Source: Citrobacter sp. MGH106 (lineage in GTDB: Bacteria; Pseudomonadota; Gammaproteobacteria; Enterobacterales; Enterobacteriaceae). From it: a stretch of DNA of 64,000 nucleotides. This document shows, one piece after another, positions 38,852 to 42,897 of this stretch. Both the position numbers and the translations under genes were made by a program. The notes under the pieces are model-generated. The model saw only the letters and a list, made by a program, of their open reading frames with translations, made no database searches and was not told the origin of the DNA. The stretch spans positions 186,001-250,000 of the forward strand of contig NZ_KQ089823.1 of assembly GCF_001037495.1 (NCBI RefSeq), written 5' to 3'. Each line of letters opens with the position of its first letter. Positions within the stretch are counted from its first letter, which is position 1.

Positions 38852-38933
38852 AGTCTGCGTGAAGCTTCGCAATCAGACTTGTACGCGCACATCCTTCATG
38901 GCTGGAAAGTTTTTTGCCAGATGGCAACTTTCC
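38852..38933. promoter_or_regulatory. Two inverted repeats upstream of the megL sigma-54 promoter (candidate enhancers)
   Basis: First dyad 38852-38879: AGTCTGCG ... CAGACT with inner GAAGCTTC. Second dyad 38904-38933: GGAAAGTT ... AACTTTCC with inner GCCA/TGGC. They lie roughly 160 and 100 bases before the expected megL start, the usual range for activator sites of sigma-54 promoters. The two differ in sequence, so at most one may be the real site. The flanking 38286-38431 and 38734-38851 hold nothing I can name. Confidence 0.4.
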
Positions 38934-38990
38934 TGACAACTTACTAAACAGCGATTTATCTAATGTATTGATATCCATAGGTTCATTTTA

Positions 38991-39006
38991 TGGCACAGCG
39001 ATTGCT
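38991..39006 (+). promoter_or_regulatory. Sigma-54 (-24/-12) promoter of megL
   Basis: TGGCACAGCGATTGCT fits TGGCAC-N5-TTGCW perfectly, with correct GG/GC spacing. It is 42 bases before the megL ATG, leaving room for a start near 39017 and the AAAGGAG ribosome site. Confidence 0.88.
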
Positions 39007-39048
39007 ATTTGAGTGTGAGCTGTTCTGTTCCGAATTAAAGGAGATATC

Positions 39049-40245
39049 ATGTCTGACTGTCGTACTTACGGATTCAATACTCAGATCGTTCACGCGGGGC
39101 AACAACCCGATCCTTCCACTGGCGCGCTTAGTACGCCTATTTTCCAGACTTCAACGTTTGTTTTTGACAGCGCCGAACAAGGTGCCGCCCGCTTTGCGCT
39201 CGAGGAGTCCGGGTACATTTATACCCGTTTGGGTAACCCCACCACCGACGCGCTGGAGAAAAAGTTGGCGGTACTGGAAAAAGGCGACGCCGCATTGGCA
39301 ACCGCATCCGGTATCTCAGCCATCACAACGTCACTGCTGACCCTGTGCCAGCAGGGCGATCATATCGTTTCCGCCAGTGCAATTTACGGCTGTACTCATG
39401 CTTTTCTGTCCCACAGCATGCCGAAGTTCGGTATTAACGTGAGCTTCGTTGACGCCGCAAAACCCGATGAAATCCGTGCTGCCATGCGCCCGGAAACTAA
39501 AGTGGTATATATCGAAACGCCAGCCAACCCAACGCTCTCACTGGTCGATATTGAAACGGTGGCTGGCATAGCCCATCAACAAGGTGCATTGCTGGTCGTG
39601 GATAACACCTTTATGTCGCCATACTGTCAGCAGCCTCTGCAGTTAGGTGCCGACATCGTGGTGCACAGTGTGACCAAATATATCAACGGTCACGGAGACG
39701 TGATTGGCGGCATCATTGTTGGCAAGCAGGATTTTATCGACCAGGCACGATTCGTCGGGCTGAAGGATATCACCGGCGGCTGTATGAGCCCCTTCAACGC
39801 CTGGCTGACGCTGCGTGGTGTTAAAACGCTGGGCATTCGTATGGAACGCCACTGTGAAAACGCGTTAAAAATTGCTCGCTTCCTGGAAGGTCATCCGTCT
39901 ATTACCCGAGTTTATTATCCTGGCCTGCCTTCACACCCGCAGTATGAGCTGGGTAAACGCCAGATGAGTCTGCCGGGAGGAATTATCAGCTTCGAAATCG
40001 CCGGAGGCCTGGAGGCTGGCAGACGGATGATCAATTCTGTAGAATTGTGCCTCCTCGCGGTCAGTCTCGGTGATACCGAAACCCTCATTCAGCACCCAGC
40101 GTCTATGACACATTCGCCCGTTGCGCCAGAGGAACGGCTTAAAGCAGGTATTACCGACGGACTTATCCGTCTTTCTGTAGGTCTTGAAGATCCAGAAGAT
40201 ATTATTAACGACCTTGAACACGCCATCAGAAAGGCAACATTCTGA
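39049..40245 (+). CDS. megL: L-methionine gamma-lyase
   Basis: 398 aa PLP enzyme splitting L-methionine into methanethiol, 2-oxobutyrate and ammonia; it also acts on homocysteine and S-substituted cysteines. It reads almost like C. freundii MGL. PLP-anchoring Lys210 lies in [11 protein letters not shown]; active-site Tyr113 and Cys115 in [17 protein letters not shown] near 58-65. The MGL-specific Cys separates it from cystathionine gamma-synthase and beta-lyase. ATG 39049 follows AAAGGAGATATC. Upstream is a sigma-54 promoter; downstream are a transporter and a convergent sigma-54 activator. Confidence 0.95.
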
Positions 40246-40250
40246 CCATT

Positions 40251-40284
40251 ACGACCTGAACCGACGCCGCTCGGTTCAGGTCGT
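40251..40284. terminator. Perfect 14-bp hairpin between megL and yhjV
   Basis: ACGACCTGAACCGA / TCGGTTCAGGTCGT with a 6-base loop, 5 bases after the megL stop. No T-run follows, so it may act as a partial terminator or protect the 3' end of megL mRNA. Confidence 0.65.
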
Positions 40285-40362
40285 TGAGAATCAAGGCACA
40301 ACAGCCAGGTTATACGCACAATCCTTTTTCAGGGAGAGTGGGTATTTTGGGCAGGGGGTTCT

Positions 40363-41661
40363 ATGCAGGACAACACATTACAATTAAGCAACAATACAGC
40401 AACCGCCGTACCATTCTCACAAAAAATACCGTTCACGAAATACGATTTTGGCTGGGTGCTACTCTGCATCGGCATGGCAATTGGTGCCGGAACGGTACTG
40501 ATGCCAGTACAAATTGGCCTGACAGGTATTTGGGTATTTATTGTCGCATTTATTATTGCCTACCCAGCAACCTATATTGTGCAGGATATTTATTTAAAAA
40601 CATTATCAGAAAGCGAAACCTGCAATGACTACACCGATATTATTAGTCATTACCTGGGAAAAAACTGGGGAGTGTTTCTCGGTGTTATTTATTTCCTGAT
40701 GATTATCCATGGTATATTTATATATTCATTATCCGTTGTTTTTGACAGCGCTTCATATATAAAAACCTTCGGGCTGACTGATGCCGATCTTTCACAATCG
40801 ATCATCTATAAAGTAGCTATTTTTGCTGTACTGGTTGCTATTGCCTCCGGTGGGGAGAAGCTGCTATTCAAGATCTCCGGTCCAATGGTAGTGGTGAAAG
40901 TGGGTATCATCGTTGTGTTTGGTTTTGCGATGGTTCCACACTGGAATTTTAGCAATATCAGTGCGTTCCCAGAGGCGTCAGTGTTCTTTCGTGACGTACT
41001 GCTGACCATCCCATTCTGCTTCTTTTCGGCGGTGTTTATTCAGGTGCTGAACCCAATGAACATCGCCTACCGCAAACGGGTGTCTGACAGAATACTGGCT
41101 ACACGCATGGCCATTCGCACCCATCGAATCAGTTACATTACGCTGATTGCGGTGATCCTGTTCTTCTCGTTTTCATTTACCTTTTCCATTAGCCATGAAG
41201 AAGCTGTATCGGCCTTCGAGCAGAATATTTCTGCGTTGGCACTGGCGGCTCAGGTTATTCCAGGACAAATCATCCATATTACCTCAACGGTATTAAATAT
41301 CTTTGCCGTGTTGACTGCATTCTTCGGTATTTATCTGGGGTTCCATGAAGCGATTAAGGGCATTATTCTTAACGTACTGGGGCGCGTAATCGACGTTGAG
41401 AAAATTAACCCGCTGGTTTTAACTCTGGGTATTTGCGCGTTTATCGTAACAACACTGGTTATTTGGGTGTCATTCCGCGTGTCGGTGTTGGTATTCTTCC
41501 AGATGGGCAGCCCACTTTACGGTATCGTTTCGTGCATTATTCCGTTTTTCCTGATCTATAAAGTGACGCAACTGGAAAAACTACGCGGGCTGAAAACCTG
41601 GCTTATCCTGCTGTACGGAATTTTGCTGTGTCTGTCGCCGCTATTGAAACTGATTGAATAG
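40363..41661 (+). CDS. yhjV: YhjV, HAAAP-family amino acid transporter
   Basis: 432 aa with 11 predicted helices, hydroxy/aromatic amino acid permease family (SdaC/TdcC/YhaO relatives). The first helix is [29 protein letters not shown], typical of the family. Very close to E. coli YhjV, also located next to dppF. Substrate unproven; position after megL suggests methionine or another sulfur amino acid here (inference). ATG 40363 follows GGGGG at 5 bases. Confidence 0.85.
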
Positions 41662-41694
41662 TCCGCATTGTGCGCCGTCAAATCCTGGCGGCGC

Positions 41695-42897
41695 TTAACT
41701 CACACTCTCCAGTTGATAGCTGCGGATTTTATTCAGTACCGTGGTATGAGATACCCCCAACGCTTTGGCAATATGCCGCGACGAGACATTTTCTTCAACC
41801 ATCTGCTCGATTAGCTGACGCTCAGCGTACTGAACTTGCTCTTTAAAAGGGCGCTCGGCATGGACCTGCTTAGCCGATGGCATATTTGTCATCCCCAAAT
41901 CCTCTCTGGTAATAACATCGGATTCCGCCATCAGCATCAGACGAATAATAGTGTTTTCCAGCTCGCGAACGTTTCCCGGCCAGGCGTGATGATGCAATGC
42001 CTCAAAACAGGCTTTATCCAGAATCAGACGTCGCTGGAATTCCTTTGCGTATTTCTGCACAAAATGGCGAATAAGTTGGCTGATATCCTGCGGGCGCTCC
42101 CGTAAAGGAGGAATGGTGAGGGAAAGCACGTTAATACGATAATAAAGATCGGCCCGTAGCAGGCGTTGTTCGACCATTTCCTCCAGATTTGCGTTAGTTG
42201 CCACAATAATGCGCACATTTACTGGAATAATTTGTGCCCCACCAACGCGACGTATCCCGCCATCCTGAAGAACACGCAGCAATTTAGCCTGTAAACTCAA
42301 CGGCATTTCACCAAATTCATCCAGAAACAGGGTGCCTTTATCAGCCATTTCAAACAGCCCCTTTTTACCTTTGCAGTCAGCACCGCTGAAGGCCCCTCTT
42401 TCATAGCCGAAGAATTCACTTTCCATCAGCGCCTCTGGTAACGCTGAGCAGTTAACGGGAATAAACGGGTAAAAGCGCCGATGCCCGGAATTATGGATAG
42501 CCCGGGCCAGCAGCTCTTTTCCGGTACCGGTTTCACCCCGGATTAAAACGGTATATTTGCTATCCGCGATTCTGATCGCCTTTTCAATCAGCAACTGCAT
42601 GCTCTGGCTGCTGCAAATAATGTCTGAAAAATAACGCGGGCGAGTCAGATCCGGTGACGATAGCCCTGCAATCTCTTCAGAAAGCCAGGCAACGTTAATA
42701 ATATCAGTACGCTGGTTTAAACGAGATTCAACGCCAGAAATATCCTGCAGTTGACGACACCACGACTTAATCAGGATCCTGCCCGTCGTCACTTTCATTG
42801 AAATGATATTAATGTCACAGAAAGAGAACTCCTTAAGAACGTCCTCAACCATAGACAGGCGGTCAATTGTTTTAATATCCCAGCGTATCGTAACCAC
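41695..42897 (-). CDS. ACT-domain sigma-54-dependent activator (TyrR-like architecture)
   Basis: 400 aa. Residues about 1-75 look like an ACT domain (MVTIRWDIKTIDRLSMVEDVLKEF), as at the start of TyrR, but there is no PAS domain. The AAA+ module spans about 90-320: Walker A GETGTGKE (121-128), sigma-54 contact loop GAFSGA (168-173, GAFTGA in most), Walker B GTLFLDE. A TyrR-like helix-turn-helix (SSRHIAKALGVSHTTVLNKI) ends the protein. TyrR lost the GAFTGA loop; this one keeps it with Thr replaced by Ser. GTG start has GGAG at 5 bases. Convergent with yhjV; it probably activates megL in response to an amino acid. Confidence 0.88.
   Translation of the reverse strand: MVTIRWDIKTIDRLSMVEDVLKEFSFCDINIISMKVTTGRILIKSWCRQLQDISGVESRLNQRTDIINVAWLSEEIAGLSSPDLTRPRYFSDIICSSQSMQLLIEKAIRIADSKYTVLIRGETGTGKELLARAIHNSGHRRFYPFIPVNCSALPEALMESEFFGYERGAFSGADCKGKKGLFEMADKGTLFLDEFGEMPLSLQAKLLRVLQDGGIRRVGGAQIIPVNVRIIVATNANLEEMVEQRLLRADLYYRINVLSLTIPPLRERPQDISQLIRHFVQKYAKEFQRRLILDKACFEALHHHAWPGNVRELENTIIRLMLMAESDVITREDLGMTNMPSAKQVHAERPFKEQVQYAERQLIEQMVEENVSSRHIAKALGVSHTTVLNKIRSYQLESVS

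Follow-up and report, generated by a model that had tools for sequence, protein, structure and literature searches.

A methionine gamma-lyase gene that lies beside an amino-acid transporter gene and a gene for a sigma-54-dependent activator raises the question of whether the three form a single regulated unit, and to which signal such a unit would respond. We addressed this question for a locus of Citrobacter sp. MGH106, within a window of 64,000 nucleotides (assembly GCF_001037495.1, contig NZ_KQ089823.1, positions 186,001 to 250,000 of the forward strand); all coordinates below are counted within this window. A first-pass annotation, made from the letters alone, had placed a transporter downstream of megL and a convergent activator gene after it, and the open reading frames were found at those coordinates:

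39049-40245, + strand: megL, 398 aa, predicted methionine gamma-lyase
40363-41661, + strand: yhjV, 432 aa, HAAAP/STP-type amino-acid transporter
41695-42897, - strand: sigma-54-dependent activator, 400 aa, with a putative ACT-like domain, an AAA+ domain with GAFSGA, and HTH_50

The first two genes are neighbours on the same strand, with no terminator-like site on the + strand in the gap between them, and the activator gene has a GTG start with GGAG in front of it in the ORF check. The order megL-yhjV-activator is shared by the window and all 23 close relatives fetched, and a gene for sigma-54 was found in the same genome.

Judged by family score and by full-length match to crystallised enzymes, MegL is a predicted methionine gamma-lyase. 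It exceeds the equivalog cut-off of TIGR01328 (568.3 bits against 549.7), and its best PDB match over residues 1-398 is the methionine gamma-lyase 3jw9 (E = 8e-265); the scores for PRK06234 and PRK07503 (618.4 and 551.8 bits) are both under the cut-off of 666 that each of these models carries. The translation contains K210 and C115, the PLP lysine and the MGL cysteine, respectively. The transporter is 87% identical to K-12 YhjV over the matched part, and its gene lies near dppF in both genomes; its best family is TIGR00814, at 471.5 bits under the cut-off of 525.8, and PF03222 gives 20.2 bits, under the cut-off of 22.

The activator had been described as carrying Walker A and B motifs, GAFSGA and a TyrR-like HTH, and all of these were found: PF00158 matches at 223.1 bits, HTH_50, presumably the TyrR-type HTH, at E = 2.2e-16, AAA_lid_14 also matches, and Walker A (GETGTGKE), Walker B (GTLFLDEF) and the GAFSGA loop can be read directly. 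The protein combines the AAA+ sigma-54 domain, the GAFTGA-type loop and both Walker motifs that define a bEBP. The ACT domain claimed for it fared less simply, since the Pfam scan of the protein itself returned no ACT match, but its profile resembles that of TyrR N-termini (profile-profile hhalign, probability 86%, E = 4.7e-6, 63 columns). Against one TyrR sequence the profile match was only 5.5%. ACT_4 was matched in 6 of 12 relatives (best E = 2.5e-4); of four scanned proteins, two scored 16.9 and 13.9 bits, where the cut-off is 27, and the other two gave no match. The profile evidence favours a putative ACT-like N-terminal domain. We take ACT-PAS-AAA-HTH_50 to be the domain order of TyrR, from which the activator departs in that the Pfam scan found no PAS; the TyrR model NF008085 gives it 286.6 of 576 bits, short of the cut-off.

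The region upstream of megL contains four candidate control elements:

38856-38871, + strand: second dyad TGCGTGAAGCTTCGCA, less conserved
38902-38933, + strand: enhancer dyad (UAS) CTGGAAAGTTTTTTGCCAGATGGCAACTTTCC, candidate binding site of the activator
38961-38973, - strand: IHF-like site TATCAATACATTA, an exact fit to WATCAANNNNTTR
38991-39006, + strand: sigma-54 promoter (-24/-12) TGGCACAGCGATTGCT, with zero mismatches to TGGCACNNNNNTTGCW

The perfect -24/-12 promoter that had been read before megL is borne out, TGGCACAGCGATTGCT fitting TGGCACNNNNNTTGCW without mismatch in all 24 loci of this type, window included. The site is also present, again free of mismatches, in both plasmid units examined (three were fetched), and it occurs in all five more distant loci of the family and in the one locus from another family. 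Genome-wide, the pattern is little above chance, because it occurs 11 times in the 4.95 Mb against 7 for the reversed pattern; at that control rate about 2e-4 matches would be expected on the right strand of the 260-bp upstream region. Two dyads had been reported upstream, of which one is conserved throughout and the other is not. The UAS dyad, GGAAAG..CTTTCC with TTGCC..GGCAA nested inside, fits the pattern that we derived at every one of the 24 loci (one mismatch in both plasmid units examined) and lies 89 bp from the promoter in 23 of them; in the remaining locus the spacing is 79 bp, a 10-bp shortening of about one helical turn. A stricter form of the UAS finds a single place in this genome even with up to three mismatches allowed. 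By contrast, dyad TGCGTGAAGCTTCGCA is exact in only 19 of 24 loci and has four mismatches in both plasmid units examined, and its outer arms (AGTCTG/CAGACT) appear by eye to be specific to the window.

The consensus for IHF is WATCAANNNNTTR, and the IHF-like site fits it exactly in 19 of 24 loci and with one mismatch in the other five, always 30 bp upstream of the start of the -24/-12 element. This site was absent from the first-pass annotation. We also looked upstream of megL for sites of MetJ, NtrC, TyrR and CRP and rejected the best candidates (7 of 16, 5 of 12, 4 of 12 and 3 of 10 mismatches, respectively).

The elements and the genes travel together. A full-length activator (at least 79% identity) and megL (at least 93%) occur in the same 11 of 295 family genomes, our own included, and the UAS pattern, which was built from the very genomes later used to count it, is found at one place per genome in precisely those 11 and in no others, the reversed control giving 0. 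Beyond them, a YhjV-type gene follows megL and a homologous activator lies nearby in five family loci that are more distant (megL 73-76%) and in one locus of another family (megL 74%); the UAS sequence is kept in none of the five, three of which have a different dyad. Three Clostridium/Clostridiales megL-like loci and one from Fusibacter have an activator-type AAA match nearby. In the one Salmonella plasmid unit compared by protein, megL, transporter and activator are 91%, 90% and 74% identical to ours. Such plasmid units were detected only through protein and distant searches, and we rejected a plasmid origin of the chromosomal unit, as megablast gave no near DNA match among plasmids; a phage origin was likewise rejected, the UAS pattern being absent from viral contigs. 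Among 5426 E. coli genomes, megablast found none with a place covering 80% of 38300-43100.

Co-occurrence, synteny and phylogenetic footprinting lend strong support to the first-pass proposal that megL is served by a sigma-54 circuit of its own, complete with a dedicated activator, and from comparison of sequences we consider it probable that the locus is a self-contained breakdown unit for methionine, or a related sulfur amino acid, under its own sigma-54 switch. The ACT-like domain of the activator would sense methionine or a close relative, the activator would bind the UAS dyad while IHF loops the DNA, and sigma-54 polymerase would then transcribe both genes, leading to import of the amino acid and its cleavage to methanethiol, ammonia and 2-oxobutyrate. 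Methionine as both the putative substrate of YhjV and the putative ligand of the activator is our best guess. Literature passages link YhjV to dyes and to melatonin, and mention it for a fimbriation mutant, in a CpxR table and in a list of GalR sites; none of the phenotypes in those passages points to methionine.

That the circuit is the same but the signal different, being cysteine, homocysteine, another sulfur amino acid or a product such as 2-oxobutyrate, with YhjV carrying that compound, is a possibility that we take seriously without expecting it to be correct. The recurring partner is of the HAAAP/STP type (the serine/threonine class) and is no known methionine carrier. Activators of this kind at a greater distance carry an additional PAS region (three of six such megL-linked proteins were scanned, and all three gave a PAS match, strong in one and weak in two), which implies that the input can differ. 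A different signal is, however, at odds with a passage that describes the methionine gamma-lyase of C. freundii as methionine-induced (PMC6706770, citing Manukhov 2006).

We now return from the signal to the methionine unit itself, whose transporter gene may have a further control region, located within megL and just after it:

40012-40245, + strand: 3' end of megL from codon 322 through codon 398 and the stop codon, with nucleotide-level constraint
40016-40045, + strand: candidate sigma-70 promoter of yhjV inside megL (CTGGCA, 18, TAGAAT)
40252-40283, + strand: predicted RNA hairpin of 12 bp between megL and yhjV, with covariation

Over its final 77 codons megL is almost invariant at synonymous sites, the synonymous differences dropping several-fold. 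CTGGCA-18-TAGAAT is the sole plus-strand sigma-70-like site in 38600-43080, a region that has three such sites against 5.8 in shuffles and hence no excess, and the block containing it is kept, with some changes, in megL-bearing and in 10 megL-less genomes. All 10 megL-less genomes examined retain remnants of the megL 3' end in front of yhjV. K-12 had been said to keep only yhjV in this spot; yhjV is indeed present, but a scrap of the megL 3' end stands in front of it (28 bases, 93%, E = 6e-7), and a 2005 paper (Manukhov et al.) reportedly noted such remnants in E. coli and Salmonella. The megL-less genomes fall into three groups in the trees. Apparently megL was lost two or three times in the family, the trees supporting two losses better than a third. 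In five genomes the similarity of the remnants begins at megL nucleotides 958-965, and in the remaining five at 984-987; these starts fall shortly upstream of the candidate promoter (nucleotides 968-997) or inside it.

We lean, by a little, towards a dual use of the last fifth of megL, as enzyme code and as a promoter and leader (or small RNA) controlling yhjV, such that after the loss of megL and the activator (two or three times) deletion stopped here and the yhjV promoter of Salmonella and E. coli would be a kept, still-selected piece of a lost enzyme gene. An embedded yhjV control region would explain both the synonymous freezing of the megL 3' end and its persistence before yhjV where Salmonella- and Escherichia-type genomes lack megL and the activator. 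A second, sigma-70-type promoter of yhjV in the last fifth of megL would leave expression of the transporter dependent only in part on the sigma-54 switch.

It seems unlikely, by comparison, that the frozen 3' end is no control element and reflects recombination, or that the remnants are alike merely because megL was lost recently. In the Salmonella-type pair L191/L193 the remnant shows 0/231 differences and its flanks, at 1/60 and 2/117, are about as conserved, with yhjV four-fold sites at 32/188; the whole gap region is alike, and recombination could also produce such likeness. The constraint is moreover absent between the window and distant megL loci, and the predicted RNA stability is not retained in megL-less genomes. 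Against this, divergence in the wider pair L191/L192 is graded, rising from the remnant (18/202, with 29 gapped bases) through the gap to yhjV (19/116) and the upstream flank (15/59) to the four-fold sites (78/184). Three E. coli-type pairs show 2-3 differences in the 50 positions of the promoter block, compared with 47/188, 43/185 and 60/187 at four-fold sites; the rest of the leader differs at 4, 13 and 14 of 120 and the upstream 100 bp at 28/93, 10/100 and 30/93. The mismatches of the remnants are distributed over codon positions, and the three tree groups and the starts of similarity just before or within the candidate promoter also argue for a control element.

Should the conserved region yield a separate small RNA, instead of or besides the yhjV leader, which we think improbable, the roughly 230 nt conserved at the nucleotide level, which exceed what a promoter needs, would be accounted for. 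Among 28 distinct sequences, the hairpin after megL shows compensatory changes in 8 of 12 pairs (39 double-change cells, compared with a shuffled mean of 9.8, sd 3.3), and a terminator-like site at 40156-40171 lies inside the constrained stretch, in a region with 8 such sites against 4.2 in shuffles. The hairpin itself has no T run after it and no terminator-like site, however, Rfam returned no family in the leader up to E = 1, and the leader is only 54 or 139-140 nt long in five megL-less genomes.

For the yhjV leader itself, neither the z values nor the covariation support a globally conserved fold (RNAalifold: of 81 pairs, 13 have changes on both sides, and covariation contributes 1.74 of the 74.6 kcal). 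The z values run from -2.5 to -5.2 in six megL-bearing genomes, with seven megL control stretches at -1.2 to 0.6; in megL-less genomes they are -1.7 and -2.0 (Salmonella-type), 0.8 and -0.4 (other remnant leaders), 0.3 and 0.9 (two E. coli-type leaders) and -1.6 and -1.7 (the two shortest). We do not claim that GCCUCCU, at the start of the leader, pairs with the ribosome-binding site of yhjV, because many other 14-mers pair equally well (8-42 of about 280 others in megL-bearing leaders; 0, 18 and 9 in three Salmonella-type leaders) and the pairing spans only 4 bases in three E. coli-type leaders. Two short leaders fit this pairing with a matched change; the comparison excluded the leader of one relative (L190). 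An 8-codon upstream ORF seen by eye at the leader start was also set aside, as it would start no later than the probable beginning of the transcript and its start codon is missing in some genomes.

Enteric sigma-54 promoters for amino-acid catabolism are often driven by NtrC under nitrogen limitation, but that NtrC is the main driver here, with the neighbouring activator minor or unrelated, is very improbable given that the 260 bp upstream hold no NtrC-like site (at best the candidate with 5 of 12 mismatches) and that the genomes with the conserved dyad are those with the activator. Among known systems, the C. freundii megL-permease locus of Manukhov et al. (2005, 2006) is said to have the same enzyme, the same downstream permease and methionine induction; to our knowledge no activator, sigma-54 promoter, enhancer, IHF site or embedded yhjV promoter has been described for it. 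The activator resembles E. coli TyrR in its ACT-like N-terminal domain and TyrR-type HTH (HTH_50) and differs in having a GAFSGA loop and no PAS found; TyrR presumably has no such sigma-54-contact loop. Another -24/-12 match in this genome (L002) lies before what we take to be CoA-transferase-like genes adjoining an AtoC-like gene, and resembles switches of the AtoC-atoDAEB type, in which one activator likewise sits beside a single catabolic operon whose -24/-12 site is perfect; AtoC, however, has a response-regulator receiver domain in place of an ACT-like input domain. A sigma-54 methionine unit has already been predicted in Clostridiales, where passages of PMC6615313 describe MdeR and mdeA-metT, a lyase gene and a transporter gene for methionine catabolism under sigma-54 and a dedicated activator. 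The megL unit likewise has a sigma-54 promoter before the lyase gene and an adjoining activator, but the UAS, TGT-N10-12-ACA in the MdeR system, appears from the conserved dyad to be GGAAAG..TTGCC..GGCAA..CTTTCC here, and the partner transporter is the TIGR00814-like YhjV rather than MetT (PMC6615313).

For the methionine gamma-lyase of Citrobacter-type bacteria, these results name a candidate regulator together with a candidate binding site and a candidate promoter; the enzyme has a use in anticancer work and gives rise to methanethiol. The megL-yhjV-activator unit is also carried on Salmonella plasmids. The orphan transporter YhjV gains a likely context in the use of sulfur amino acids. If the dual use of the megL 3' end is real, this locus would be a protein code overlapping control DNA of which the control half has outlived the gene, and may be a clear case of it.

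The megL, yhjV and activator genes form a conserved unit whose members occur together and in a fixed order: the arrangement is present in all 24 loci compared (17 of the genus and 7 others), and dppF is found in 23 of them, the remaining stretch having no dppF match. In the genome of the window (4.95 Mb, two contigs) the locus reads pdeK (-), an ldrD-like ORF (-), megL (+), yhjV (+), the activator gene (-) and dpp genes (-), the names of pdeK and of the dpp genes past dppF being assigned from gene order. Family profile searches confirmed the lyase, transporter and sigma-54 activator families named in the first-pass annotation, and in a PDB sequence search the megL product aligns with crystallised methionine gamma-lyase along its entire length. 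Among 295 genomes of the Enterobacteriaceae, a full-length activator and this type of megL are carried by the same 11, and the activator is present in 17/17 genomes of the genus searched. One relative (L190, a stretch of genome G307) has a yhjV match shorter than that of the other relatives and missing its 5' part, possibly a frameshift or an assembly error. The pdeK-megL interval also holds an ordinary type I toxin-antitoxin pair, found in the same place in K-12:

38512-38619, minus strand, LdrD-like ORF of 35 codons, read by eye
38668-38732, plus strand, RdlD antitoxin RNA (Rfam RF01813, 76.8 bits)

The pdeK-ldrD interval (36279-38512 of the window) contains no cellulose (bcs) genes, which K-12 has before ldrD, and a profile search of the window's genome found no BcsB (PF03170).

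Sigma-54 activators remodel the polymerase from enhancers, often helped by IHF, and the DNA upstream of megL is arranged as is typical of sigma-54 promoters, with an enhancer, an IHF-type site and a -24/-12 promoter. We compared the 260 bp 5' of megL in the 24 loci, window included, and the perfect -24/-12 promoter first noticed in the window is present in every one. Two dyads had been described farther upstream; the enhancer dyad recurs in 24/24 loci, whereas the second is exact in just 19. The IHF-like site, exact in 19 loci and with one mismatch in 5, always lies 30 bp before the promoter. From the start of the enhancer dyad to the promoter the distance is 89 bp in 23 loci and 79 bp in one, where the ten-base shortening falls between the dyad and the IHF-like site and preserves the helix face. 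The megL leader and its ribosome-binding site are likewise conserved, and the rest of the upstream DNA varies considerably. The enhancer pattern occurs only in the 11 of 295 family genomes that carry both activator and megL, with 0 matches for a reversed control; since the pattern was derived from the same sequences, the informative part is its absence from the other family genomes. Another perfect -24/-12 site, in the stretch L002, precedes presumably CoA-transferase-like genes adjoining what we take to be an AtoC-like regulator, and serves the promoter pattern as a positive control.

The first 84 residues of the window's activator have no Pfam match. For the N-termini of 12 relatives the best family is ACT_4, which matches 6 of them (best E 2.5e-4), and when their profile is compared with one built from 19 TyrR N-termini the probability is 86% (E 4.7e-6, 63 columns); a profile of 15 against a single TyrR sequence gives just 5.5%. 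PDB searches with this domain returned nothing significant; the match that recurred was to a chain of a GTP pyrophosphokinase (E 0.73 and 1.6). The profile comparisons suggest, and do not prove, that the domain is ACT-like.

Five further family genomes carry a megL at 73-76%, a YhjV-type gene directly after it and an activator nearby, of 505-549 aa by the starts that we chose. When 295 order genomes were searched at E 1e-145, the sole match outside the family was a genome of another family that carries megL, a YhjV-type gene, a chemoreceptor-like gene and an activator of 523 aa. All six of these distant loci have a -24/-12 site before megL, none has the window-type enhancer sequence, and three have a different dyad. 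Their activators have the N-terminal domain in common with that of the window, and in the three of six that were scanned a PAS region follows it (one strong, E 8e-12, and two weak), beside which the Citrobacter-type activator looks like a form without PAS. Among 80 named loci, 5 have all three genes (four from Citrobacter and one from a metagenome genome that bears the label Buttiauxella); in 7 others, ranging from Clostridia to gammaproteobacteria, an activator-type AAA match lies near the lyase, with no convincing match to the activator N-terminal domain. At five distant megL loci (L129-L133) the megL-yhjV gaps are long too, about 206-270 nt between matches, and a strong-looking inverted repeat of unrelated sequence can be seen by eye 3' of the megL stop.

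Of 72,556 plasmid records, 163 also carry a relative of the N-terminal domain; the matches listed (best 20 of 163) are all from Salmonella, and 148 of the 163 are typed conjugative. Enhancer matches, listed for the best 10, come to 163 plasmid records too, and the mobility counts of the two lists are slightly unequal, so that the lists may not be identical. Two of three plasmid stretches (L212-L214) have the same megL-transporter-activator layout, and the third has a megL that is without annotation and reads as two pieces. In two of the stretches the enhancer stands at 88 bp and has a single mismatch, and the promoter is free of mismatches. Protein identity between L213 and the window is 91% for megL, 90% for the transporter and 74% for the activator. 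A gene for a yersiniabactin receptor lies close to the unit on these Salmonella plasmids.

The 3' end of megL is constrained beyond its protein sequence. Across the 24 megL sequences, synonymous difference taken per ten codons ranges over 0.22-0.49 for codons 21-320, 0.11-0.12 for codons 1-20 and 0.016-0.14 for codons 321-398, and the lowest 15-codon stretch reaches 0.011, a value against which 2000 codon permutations never fell below 0.07. Four-fold sites in five genomes differ from the window's megL by 0.42-0.58 in codons 2-321 and by 0.15-0.24 in codons 322-398. The plasmid copies share this constraint partly (0.49-0.56 versus 0.22-0.28), the distant megL loci do not have it in common with the window, and yhjV, compared in 22 sequences with full-length matches, has no comparable constraint except at its start. 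Within the constrained part lies a hairpin that resembles a terminator and has a short T run (40156-40171); this could bear on a leader or a small RNA, or have arisen by chance. Covariation marks the hairpin between megL and yhjV as an RNA helix, and the remaining leader fold is not conserved among the folds predicted across genomes. A proposed pairing with the ribosome-binding site in this leader failed its control and was rejected.

Nine of 295 family genomes carry a close yhjV (86% or more) with no megL or activator in the surrounding 8 kb, K-12 is a tenth such genome, and 7 more distant yhjV loci (59-68%) likewise have no match to either gene. In all ten megL-less genomes with a close yhjV the 420 bp before yhjV contain a match to the megL 3' end (E 1e-79 to 0.004, compared with a best E of 0.05 for reversed megL), the weakest of which, in L197, is not strong on its own. 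By calculation the K-12 remnant occupies about NC_000913 3700385-3700565. The match begins at megL nt 958-965 in five genomes and at 984-987 in the other five, and the remnants have in common a block of a -35-like CTGG(C/T)AG, 17-18 bp, TAGAAT or TAAATT, and then C/T-rich DNA. Between L191 and L192 the remnant differs at 18/202 positions, the gap to yhjV at 19/116, the upstream flank at 15/59 and yhjV four-fold sites at 78/184; between L196 and L197 we count 18/85 from the candidate promoter in this block to the start codon versus 91/187. The remnants of L191 and L193 differ at 0/231 positions and yhjV four-fold sites at 32/188, but the flanks are near-identical too (1/60 and 2/117), so that in this pair the remnant does not stand out. 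In trees of yhjV with dppF and of yhjV alone, the megL-less genomes form three groups interleaved with megL-bearing ones; the node setting L194 apart has support of 0.83-0.88, and for the node at which a megL-bearing genome joins the Salmonella-type ones support is 0.92 in one of the trees and nil in the second. Given this uneven support, two or three losses of megL in the family would be the simplest reading, not proof. In one megL-less genome (L199) an additional 2 kb or so separates yhjV (match ends 4349) from dppF (starts 6302). Remnants of the megL 3' end were reportedly described for Salmonella and E. coli in the abstract of Manukhov 2005, and the scar before yhjV is therefore already known; in the portions searched of the literature mentioning yhjV, it was nowhere interpreted as a retained promoter or leader.

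Methionine gamma-lyase releases methanethiol, ammonia and 2-oxobutyrate. For Clostridiales mdeA-metT, a sigma-54 promoter and an activator, MdeR, are predicted in an earlier study (PMC6615313), and this kind of system is therefore not new. The Citrobacter-type unit differs in enhancer, transporter and host group. Titles and abstract openings of the papers listed, in a search with most subscription journals outside it, gave no description of a megL sigma-54 circuit in Enterobacteriaceae. Passages of other papers tie K-12 YhjV to dye uptake and melatonin tolerance, its natural substrate not being known (PMC9251470, PMC8131027), and list yhjV at -2.7 in a CpxR regulon table (PMC2731931). In the mechanism that we propose, megL and yhjV would be co-transcribed, the activator would bind the enhancer dyad and respond to a ligand, and YhjV would perform import; methionine as the inducer is supported by a passage stating that it induces methionine gamma-lyase of C. 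freundii, in a paper that also reports higher expression of the lyase in Hafnia alvei in co-culture (PMC6706770).
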